Origin: a virus
Length of the DNA stretch: 35,955 bases
Reading direction: 5' to 3' (one strand)
IMG/VR virus record: IMGVR_UViG_3300047392_000229
Span: 1-35,955 of that record
The position numbers and the translations under genes are program-made. Positions 24,463 to 34,028 of this stretch are shown piece after piece. The notes under the pieces were generated by a model that worked only from the letters and a program-made list of their open reading frames with translations, did no database searches and had not been told where the DNA came from. How positions within the stretch are numbered: the stretch's first letter is position 1; each line of letters begins with the position of its first letter.

Positions 24463-24642
24463 ATGAACATCGAACAAATTGAACAAAAATGTGCTGAAAC
24501 ATTGCTTGATTACGCAATCACAATGTGCAGTGCTTATGTAGACGAACCAGAGGACTTTAATGCCGCTGTAGTCGCTCTTTTAGCCAGGGCTTTAGAGAAT
24601 CATCTAAATCGCCCAATTAATATTCAGGAAATGTATCAATGA
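24463..24642 (+). CDS. 59-residue acidic helical protein
   Basis: The frame begins NIEQIEQKCAETLLDYAITM and continues with AYVDEPEDFNAAVVALLARA, then a short tail. It ends in an ATGA overlap with the winged-helix gene, which argues that both are translated together. It has no ribosome-binding site, and the promoter at 24429 would put the first transcribed base at the ATG. It could be a small regulator or antirepressor working with its neighbour. No family recognised. Confidence 0.6.
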   Translation: MNIEQIEQKCAETLLDYAITMCSAYVDEPEDFNAAVVALLARALENHLNRPINIQEMYQ

Positions 24643-25016
24643 CGCAAGCAAAGGTAATCAAAGCACTCCAAAATGGACCTTTGACCTCACATGAAGTAGC
24701 CAATCTGACTGGTATGCCACAAGCTACAGTCCTGTCTACTGCTAAAAAACTACGCCATCAAGGTAAGTTGACAACAGAAATCATTAAAGTTGGCAGACAT
24801 TGGGTGGCTCAATACACGCTAGATGATGAGCTTATTGAGTACAAGCCAAAGAAGGATGACGAGGAAACACGCTGCAAGCTAAACCCTTTTGACATTCGTA
24901 ACGCCAAGGGCATATTCACCCCTGCTGAGTACCGAGTGATGAACGCACAGGCAAAAAGGCTTTACAAAGCGAATCCAGACTTTACGAAAACAATTACCAA
25001 CAATCAAAGAATTTAA
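24639..25016 (+). CDS. Winged-helix transcriptional regulator-like protein
   Basis: 125 aa. Residues 1-60 read as a winged helix: TQAKVIKALQNGPLTSHEVA, NLTGMPQATVLSTAKKLRHQ as recognition helix, GKLTTEIIKVGRHWVAQYTL as wing. The second half has a KPKKDDEE linker and KGIFTPAEYRVMNAQAKRLY. It lies between divergent early control regions, with inverted AGTTTACAGT copies on each side, so it is the best candidate for an early gene regulator in this genome. A replication-initiation role is the alternative. Confidence 0.75.
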   Translation: MTQAKVIKALQNGPLTSHEVANLTGMPQATVLSTAKKLRHQGKLTTEIIKVGRHWVAQYTLDDELIEYKPKKDDEETRCKLNPFDIRNAKGIFTPAEYRVMNAQAKRLYKANPDFTKTITNNQRI

Positions 25017-25056: not shown

Positions 25057-25082
25057 TTGACAAGGTAAAAAATGTGTATAAT
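25057..25082 (+). promoter_or_regulatory. Promoter with perfect hexamers and short spacer
   Basis: TTGACA (25057-25062) and TATAAT (25077-25082) both match the sigma-70 consensus fully but are only 14 bases apart, shorter than the usual 16-18. A start near 25089 would place the CGTCTGA hairpin at the very 5' end of the transcript. The short spacer could make this promoter dependent on an activator that twists the DNA. Confidence 0.7.
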
Positions 25083-25087
25083 TAAAT

Positions 25088-25241
25088 CGTCTGAGTGGCA
25101 TCAGACGAGCGAATCAACTTCAAACCCCTCAGATACCTGTGGCGGTCTTGTCAGACAACTGGCGTACTTTTGAGTTGATTCAATCGTCCGTTGTTGCTCT
25201 CGCCAAGAGCCAAGACCACCAGAGTTATTTGAGGGGTTTTT
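25088..25241 (+). ncRNA. Structured RNA with long stem and predicted pseudoknot
   Basis: No convincing gene lies here, but base pairing is dense. CGTCTGA/TCAGACG (25088-25107) makes a 5' hairpin. Positions 25122-25150 pair with 25211-25239 along 29 positions with three mismatches, including AAACCCCTCA with TGAGGGGTTT and GGTCTTG with CAAGACC. GAATCAACT (25111-25119), outside the stem, is the exact complement of AGTTGATTC (25173-25181) inside its loop: a pseudoknot. GCTCT/AGAGC (25196-25210) is a hairpin whose loop CGCCA matches TGGCG (25160-25164). GACAAC (25154-25159) pairs with GTTGTT (25190-25195). The T-run at 25237-25241 could end a free small RNA; otherwise this is a 5' leader of the rightward operon. 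No known class recognised. Confidence 0.7.
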
Positions 25242-25495
25242 GCATTTGGCGACTACACAATGCGGTACGTCGGTGGTTGTGTGTTGGGATACCCTGTTAC
25301 ACGAGCAAGCTAGAGCAGGGACGGTGGGCGAATCCTAGAGCCGAGTGGTTGAAATAGTCTGGGATAGTGCGATTGCGATGACATGGCTCCATACAAGAGG
25401 AATCATCAAGGCACAAGCGAACTTTGGTTTTGACCACGGTAAGGCTGTGCTTTGCTCCAACATTCACCACCAAGAGGTATTAACTTAATAAGGAG
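25242..25495 (+). other. Gene-poor, G/C-richer stretch with further hairpins
   Basis: Between the structured RNA and the next ribosome site I see no convincing gene. Hairpins continue: ACACAA (25255-25260) with TTGTGT (25277-25282); CCCTGTT (25292-25298) with AGCAGGG (25314-25320); CAAGGCACA (25407-25415) with TGTGCTTTG (25446-25454), extended by two pairs past a bulge. CTAGAGC occurs twice (25310, 25335). The stretch is visibly richer in G and C than the flanking genes. It may be the rest of one long structured leader or a second RNA. Confidence 0.45.
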
Positions 25496-25503
25496 ATATG
25501 TAG

Positions 25504-25710
25504 ATGAAGTATCTGGTAAACAAGAGTAAGGAGAATGGTAGGGCACACCTGTGGGATGAAGGTGATACTTACTGCAAGATGTACAGCACAGGCGGATTAA
25601 GAAAAAAACGCTACGAAGTTGTTGACGACAAGGAAGACAAAGAAGTTTGTTTGATGTGTCAAAACGTTTGGAATGAAATCCATACTTATGCAGGAGGCAA
25701 TCATGTTTGA
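25504..25710 (+). CDS. Small cysteine protein, first gene after structured leader
   Basis: 68 aa. KYLVNKSKENGRAHLWDEGD and TYCKMYSTGGLRKKRYEVVD followed by VCLMCQNVW match a small conserved protein (RAHLWDxxDTxCRMxSTGGL...C..C) common in Proteobacteria and their phages. C24, C49 and C52 may bind zinc. AAGGAGA lies 8 bases before the ATG. The gene overlaps the next by 8 bases. Confidence 0.7.
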   Translation: MKYLVNKSKENGRAHLWDEGDTYCKMYSTGGLRKKRYEVVDDKEDKEVCLMCQNVWNEIHTYAGGNHV

Positions 25711-26059
25711 GTCTGGGTTTGAACGCTTCTGGTCAGCATGGCCTAAATCAATACGCAAGGGCGCAAAGTCTGAGTGTTTAAAGAAGTGGAACAAGTTTTA
25801 CTGCGAGACTTGTGTAGATCAAATAATTAAGCATATTGAGTGGATGAAAACCACAGATCAATGGCGCAAAGACAATGGTGCGTATATTCCAGCACCTTTA
25901 GTTTACTTAAACCAACAACGATGGGATGGTGCAGAAGTACCAGAGACTTTTGCTAAACCATTGGTTGACCCTGCATTGGCAAAGATTGAAGTTGATAGAA
26001 AAAAAGCAGCGCCTATGCCTGAACACATCCGAGCAAGATTAGCTGAACTGAGGAAATAA
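25703..26059 (+). CDS. Replication-type protein (helicase-loader/primosome-like domain)
   Basis: 118 aa. FERFWSAWPKSIRKGAKSEC, then KKWNKFYCETCVDQIIKHIE, QWRKDNGAYIPAPLVYLNQQ and RWDGAEV form a domain that in many phages is the C-terminal part of O-like or DnaT-like replication proteins (FWxAYPKKxxKxxAxxxW...YIPxPxTYLNxxRWxD). Here it stands alone. It may load host DnaB or bind primosome parts. The start at 25703 has AGGAGG 6 bases upstream; a longer frame lacks such a site. Confidence 0.7.
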   Translation: MFESGFERFWSAWPKSIRKGAKSECLKKWNKFYCETCVDQIIKHIEWMKTTDQWRKDNGAYIPAPLVYLNQQRWDGAEVPETFAKPLVDPALAKIEVDRKKAAPMPEHIRARLAELRK

Positions 26060-33277: not shown

Positions 33278-34028
33278 AATGCACCCCTTTAATTTGAACA
33301 AAACCCGATTGATCCTTTTTAGCTTTACCTTTAGCATATAAAGCCACTACTACATTTTTCGGCTCAATATGTCTTACATCAGTATCATCCCCATCAATTA
33401 CTTCCCAAGATCTAAAGCTTAATGGAATATCCTCTTTTTTCTGAAAAACTACTGCTACTCTAGAATTATTGGGATTTGTTAATCCCTTAATTGATATTGG
33501 CTTTGGGGTAATACTTGAGAATGAATAGGTCAAATCGTAATTGCCTACTGTTTTGCCTTCTAGGTTTCTAGAGGGATGTTTTGTATAGTCATAAAATTGG
33601 ACATTAGGGAATAAGCTAAAAATTGTCCTATTTGGAATTACTTCATAATTTTCCCAAAGGATGTCAGATGTCCCATTAAGACGCACTAAAAGCTTTTGAT
33701 TATTTCTACTAGCCTTTTCTTGCAATTCCCAAATATCTGCACAAAGGGAAAATAAAAAGCTTTTTTGTTGGTTATACCAAAACTCAGTTTTTGATTTTCG
33801 CGCCCGCTGCACGCTATTGAACGCGCCTCTACCTGATGAATAAAGACATCCCTCCATGCATCCTGCAAGCCTTGCAAGGGGACATAGAGTGTCATCAGGG
33901 GTAAGGTATAGGATTGCAGTTAGAAAGCCCATCTTTTCGCCTTTAACTGTCTTTGTGGAGGCAGTACCTAAAAGCTTTTTATAGATGAGACCATCTTTTT
34001 TGATGATTGATTTGTATGGATTAAACAT
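33270..34028 (-). CDS. Conserved phage protein with cysteine cluster, DUF7227-like
   Basis: 252 aa. STKTVKGEKMGFLTAILYLT, then CPLARLAGCMEGCLYSSGRG, LVRLNGTSDILWENYEVIPN and VQFYDYTKHPSR are the blocks of a phage family I know as DUF7227. The spaced cysteines (CPx5GCx3C) could hold a metal or iron-sulphur cluster, and the repeated hydrophobic beta/alpha pattern suggests a barrel, loosely reminiscent of radical-SAM or Gp88-like proteins. No enzyme activity is established. The ATG at 34028 has the AGGCG leader found before other genes of this block. Confidence 0.75.
   Translation of the reverse strand: MFNPYKSIIKKDGLIYKKLLGTASTKTVKGEKMGFLTAILYLTPDDTLCPLARLAGCMEGCLYSSGRGAFNSVQRARKSKTEFWYNQQKSFLFSLCADIWELQEKASRNNQKLLVRLNGTSDILWENYEVIPNRTIFSLFPNVQFYDYTKHPSRNLEGKTVGNYDLTYSFSSITPKPISIKGLTNPNNSRVAVVFQKKEDIPLSFRSWEVIDGDDTDVRHIEPKNVVVALYAKGKAKKDQSGFVQIKGVHYE

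Follow-up and report, generated by a model that had tools for sequence, protein, structure and literature searches.

We report that a freshwater phage encodes a structured RNA of ~155 nt, designated RNA1 (class alpha), at positions 25088-25241, just 3′ of an early promoter. The window analyzed is the whole 35,955-nt stretch of IMG/VR virus record IMGVR_UViG_3300047392_000229. The predicted stems and a long-range pseudoknot of RNA1 are borne out by sequence comparison. RNA1 may represent a new pseudoknotted class that acts as a cis-acting, terminator-closed leader and sets transcription into the early operon, a reading to which we give just short of an even chance.

Predicted Fold of RNA1

RNA1 lies on the + strand and comprises four helices besides the pseudoknot. 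The RNA begins with a 5′ hairpin, H1 (25088-25107), in which a stem (25088-25094/25101-25107) closes the loop GUGGCA (25095-25100). The 5′ strand of the pseudoknot, GAATCAACT (25111-25119), forms an exact 9-bp helix with AGTTGATTC (25173-25181); both strands are supported by the double changes and the own-versus-cross test described below. The main stem, P2, pairs 25122-25150 with 25211-25239, and a base-by-base check found exactly three mismatches in its 29 positions. It encloses P3 (25156-25193; stem 25156-25165/25184-25193), whose apical loop contains CUUUUG and the pseudoknot 3′ strand, and the P4 hairpin (25196-25210), with the loop CGCCA (25201-25205). The 3′ strand of P2 together with the T-run at 25237-25241 forms a terminator-like end (25211-25241). 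A preliminary description of this DNA had proposed the hairpin at the first base, the imperfect stem ending in the T-run, and the exact pseudoknot, and all of these were found directly in the sequence.

The minimum free energy of RNA1 is -67.2 kcal/mol, compared with -41.7 ± 3.8 kcal/mol for 200 dinucleotide shuffles, none of which folded as well (z = -6.74). As had been claimed, neighboring DNA shows far less pairing: 33 windows of 154 nt gave a mean z of -0.4, with -2.8 as the best value.

Covariation Analysis

In an alignment of 60 divergent RNA1 copies, 96.8% of the cells in a 56-pair model form standard pairs and 27 of the 56 pairs show double compensatory changes; these counts, like all structure counts given here, rest on MAFFT alignments of kindred sequences selected through words they have in common, and do not represent independent events. 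The covariation score was 0.313; shuffles gave 0.146, and sliding the partners gave 0.08 or less. Within the same set, double changes occur in four of the seven H1 pairs (99.5% paired), in 12 pairs of the P2 helix, which has 25 pairs in the model (98.5% paired), and in three of the ten P3 pairs (94% paired), while the H1 loop is invariant in nearly all copies. Relatives thus keep the pairing through compensatory changes.

Eight of the nine pseudoknot pairs show double changes in the 60 sequences. The pseudoknot is also the most variable helix of RNA1, with 62 different helices among 90 distinct copies. A pseudoknot score of at least 7 was reached by 99% of copies with their own partner, versus 8% when partners were swapped between phages, and this own-versus-cross comparison is less sensitive to kinship and to the selection of sequences than the counts are.

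The same data bear on whether the pairing simply reflects a protein-coding gene or arose by chance. A 72-aa ORF (25139-25357) does overlap RNA1. However, the fold (z of -6.7) and the covariation across 60 sequences speak against such an origin, as do the frequent single-base gaps between homologues in the linkers of the alignment. We give this explanation a negligible probability and regard it as refuted by the covariation; we therefore agree with the initial view that RNA1 holds no convincing gene.

The partner first suggested for the P4 loop CGCCA, the motif TGGCG, occurs at 25140, 25160, and 25247, and neither copy inside RNA1 is conserved; this partner was judged wrong and dropped. We propose a kissing loop between UGGC of the H1 loop and GCCA of the P4 loop. 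Both loops, GUGGCA and CGCCA, are invariant in most RNA1 copies, and the contacting bases have been exchanged compensatorily in two divergent lineages. One (L182) has the loops GUGGUA and AAACCAA, which would pair UGGU with ACCA, and the other (L154/L417) has AGUCGCUAA and UUAGCC, which would pair GCUAA with UUAGC. Some copies vary the bases around the P4-loop core (UGCCA, AUGCCA) and keep GCCA. Judging from estimated helix lengths, P3 stacked on the pseudoknot would roughly match P2 in length, making a closed, side-by-side fold possible.

Distribution and Database Searches

Matches to a 21-mer of RNA1 were found in 10 IMG/VR contigs, to the 5′ hairpin in 41, and to a 19-mer of the 3′ hairpin in at least 119. 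Almost all copies of RNA1 alpha fall within 153-162 nt; a single copy has 168 nt. All alpha relatives are metagenomic contigs. A BLAST search of the alpha locus against INPHARED phages and PLSDB plasmids returned no match, and no genuine alpha RNA1 was present in the GTDB genome set; two Clostridia matches in the genome scan were attributed to chance, as their flanks lacked the RNA. A scan of the window and 13 loci against Rfam 15 at curated scores, including 6S, c4, and riboswitches, likewise gave no match. Searching RNA1 itself with E values up to 5 produced nothing, and permissive thresholds yielded chance matches only, in keeping with the original impression that the fold belongs to no familiar RNA class. 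Searches of the open-licence literature turned up no account of RNA1.

The window contains one RNA1 copy (model R1), apart from its own antisense shadow, and no second H1-like 5′ hairpin with all seven pairs. A search of the rest of the phage for an antisense target gave a longest match of 13 nt; shuffles reach 15 nt.

Promoter and Genomic Context

The predicted RNA1 promoter (25057-25082, + strand) consists of TTGACA at 25057 and TATAAT at 25077. Both hexamers are perfect, as had been stated; the spacer, however, is only 14 bp, and a promoter scan with 16-18 bp spacers misses the site. Spacing of the -35 and -10 boxes in relatives ranges from 14 to 19 bp. Among 94 distinct relatives, the 60 nt upstream of RNA1 carry a predicted sigma-70 promoter scoring above 8 bits in 77%, and in 84 the end of the -10 box is 6-7 nt away from RNA1. 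None of the 94 relatives has a promoter-like site above 8 bits within 260 nt past RNA1, versus 8.5% of shuffles. The spacers of many RNA1 promoters (e.g., in L250, L140, and L212) contain an inverted repeat such as CGCACA-N7-TGTGCG that resembles a repressor operator.

A winged-helix regulator gene (24639-25016, + strand; HTH_5 (ArsR) match just below the cut-off) precedes the promoter. In many relatives, a P22_Cro-like gene occupies this place on the same strand as RNA1. The idea that RNA1 starts the rightward early operon holds insofar as its position is early and promoter-proximal, but RNA1 comes after the regulator gene and is first only under its own promoter. Downstream lie a replication-initiation-like gene (25673-26059, + strand; phrog_9474 replication initiation protein, 8e-14), a methyltransferase, and RusA; relatives carry co-directional RusA, NinB-like, and HNH genes and terminase. 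At almost every locus, the RNA1 module stands first in a run of co-directional early genes. Those loci with seemingly opposite downstream genes that were inspected look like cases of spurious antisense ORFs.

The P2 stem ends in CCCC/GGGG followed by TTTTT, as expected of an intrinsic terminator with a GC-rich stem and a T-run. Because the enclosed loop is unusually long (~100 nt), a terminator scan does not list this end. The outer P2 pairs covary and the T-run follows in nearly every homologue, which indicates selection for a terminator-like end.

At most loci, a second conserved non-coding element of ~250 nt, RNA2, lies directly 3′ of the T-run, starting within ~10 nt of it. In the window, RNA2 type A (25252-25500, + strand) occupies the space between RNA1 and the first gene, and in 45 non-redundant relatives of this type, 16 of the 47 predicted pairs show double changes, with 95% of cells paired. 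RNA2 comprises several apparently unrelated structured types (exemplified by L001, L002, L028, L198, L299, and L312), which are combined with different RNA1 classes; none matched Rfam in the loci scanned. Type A also carries a short direct repeat (25385-25480), one copy of which follows GGCTCC and the other TCACCA at the 3′ border of RNA2. The repeat is identical within a phage and differs between phages, with at least 7 nt shared in 77% of cases versus 11% across phages.

Two loci (L154/L417) have no RNA2. There, a 64-aa gene starts at the T-run, with its ribosome-binding sequence (GGGAGG) inside the terminator stem, and is homologous to a gene located behind RNA1 and RNA2 in L015. In another pair (L162/L439), a gene starts ~25-40 nt after the T-run. 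Since RNA2 or genes follow the T-run directly, with neither room nor signal for a promoter, some transcription must pass the RNA1 T-run.

Non-homologous Replacements of RNA1

When loci were fetched by the replication gene, 39 of 77 contained full-length alpha RNA1 and one (L252) a truncated copy. This ~50-nt remnant (L252, 520-580) is fused to RNA2 type C and arose either by deletion in nature or by faulty assembly. Every locus without alpha that was read has another RNA between promoter and RNA2, which we assign to class beta (L204, L218, L299-L378) or gamma (L212, L250, L280-L298). Both are non-homologous to alpha and occupy the same place, with a promoter, a pseudoknot, a long stem, and a T-run. 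In beta, the loop of the 5′ hairpin is paired to a segment that precedes the terminator strand. In gamma, the linker pairs with the interior (92% with own versus 26% with cross partners; 13 copies, 8 helices), the evidence for both classes coming from fewer sequences, with most beta pairings judged by eye.

In the annotated phage MW202484, beta RNA1 and the RNA2 behind it are found downstream of the replication gene instead of upstream, indicating that the module has no fixed link to that gene; promoter, RNA1, and RNA2 seem to move as a unit. A packaging RNA (as in phi29 pRNA) and a replication primer were put aside as explanations of RNA1, given that L147, L138, and others show no fixed link between module and replication gene. 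At L147 (5410-5720; MW202484.1, 33516-33826), an annotated hypothetical protein (33533-33892) overlaps beta RNA1 and RNA2 and is probably a mis-annotated non-coding RNA.

Proposed Function

In the mechanism that we tentatively favor, transcription would start at RNA1's own promoter, RNA1 would form the first ~155 nt of the transcript, and its main stem would double as an intrinsic-terminator-like hairpin. Folding of H1, the pseudoknot, and the kissing loop may hold the 5′ strand of this stem, and the RNA1 fold could set how often polymerase stops at the T-run and releases a ~155-nt RNA. Polymerases that do not stop would run on into RNA2 and the replication genes. RNA1 would act in cis as a stop/go element heading the rightward early operon. 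Apart from the stem itself, a search for complements of the two terminator strands gave no segment with clearly better pairing inside a phage than between phages; the absence of a conserved antiterminator strand makes a classical refolding switch unlikely. A cis-acting role is favored by an RNA start that is fixed relative to the promoter with no promoter downstream, by the proximity of a conserved, structured RNA2 to the T-run, and by the placement of the non-homologous beta and gamma RNAs. Against it, the module in MW202484 does not precede the replication gene, and RNA1 has its own promoter and terminator, as would a stand-alone small RNA gene.

This last point leads to the main rival, which we consider distinctly less probable: a free ~155-nt RNA acting in trans early in infection, whose target might be a host protein, RNA polymerase, or another RNA, with downstream genes served by terminator leakage or upstream transcripts. 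The RNA start at 6-7 nt from the -10 box, the terminator-like 3′ end, the closed tertiary fold with invariant loops, the narrow length range, and the lack of an antiterminator strand would all suit such an RNA. They have to be set against RNA2, or the genes in L154 and L162, directly behind the T-run with no promoter room, an early-operon place that is nearly always the same even for non-homologous classes, and a longest antisense match in the phage no better than shuffles provide. On these comparisons, the evidence leans toward a read-through leader. The variability of the pseudoknot raises a further reading, that RNA1 confers immunity in the manner of P4 CI or P1 c4; its pseudoknot strands would base-pair in trans with leader RNA from a superinfecting relative, forcing termination. 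The 62 pseudoknot sequences in an otherwise conserved RNA, and the similarly variable pseudoknot of class gamma, are what prompt it; variable pairing is, however, expected of any helix kept only for shape, the pseudoknot and terminator stem do not compete, and c4 gave no Rfam match, leaving this reading very improbable. P4 CI and P1 c4 are themselves phage leader RNAs, with termination and RNA pairing as their mode of action. Unlike RNA1, they are smaller and antisense in action.

Antitermination of the kind known from phage HK022, in which put RNA counteracts pausing and termination with no need of protein factors, had been raised as an analogy. HK022 put RNA is ~70 nt long, forms two stem-loops, and occurs as putL and putR; putL lies directly downstream of the early promoter PL and heads the early operon of this lambda-like phage (PMC9378689). 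RNA1, alone or with RNA2, could similarly bind polymerase and render it resistant to later terminators. Its place directly 3′ of an early promoter at the head of a long co-directional operon is the same, and its exchange for other RNAs may parallel the exchange of antitermination systems among lambdoid phages. In contrast, RNA1 is 153-162 nt long, with a pseudoknot, a kissing loop, and a terminator-like basal stem, whereas put has no end terminator, and the window holds one RNA1 where put occurs as two copies per phage, one each for the left and right operon. Membership in the put family is not supported, given these differences in size, fold, and copy number, and we regard a put-like function as improbable.

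Other known systems share individual traits. In lambda, the nutR-tR1 region separates cro from the replication genes and includes a terminator in the path of polymerase, and RNA1 likewise sits between regulator and replication genes with a terminator to pass; it differs in its closed fold, its own promoter, and the lack of a recognized boxA/boxB or N-like system. Attenuating riboswitch leaders are also pseudoknotted and promoter-proximal, with a terminator-like stem ahead of genes, but the RNA1 terminator is its own main stem, with no antiterminator strand found. 6S RNA resembles RNA1 as a long imperfect hairpin of 150-200 nt and differs in that RNA1 has a pseudoknot, a phage leader position, and no Rfam match. 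A more speculative and rather unlikely proposal is an exchangeable two-part RNA cassette behind a promoter: first a terminator-closed pseudoknot RNA, of which there are at least three non-homologous kinds (alpha, beta, gamma), then one of several structured RNA2 types. Freshwater phages would gate early transcription with this cassette where others use protein antiterminators or repressors, and the hypervariable pseudoknot would serve as a type-specific code.

Significance

With RNA1, phage biology gains a large RNA family backed by covariation. To our knowledge, very few systems, HK022 put among them, control early phage transcription by RNA alone. The swapping of unrelated RNAs at one position offers natural comparisons of what a phage leader RNA must do, and the short region with its sigma-70-like promoter should be amenable to in vitro work with E. 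coli polymerase. Together, RNA1 and its beta and gamma replacements suggest that early phage genes are controlled by a kind of RNA module not described so far.
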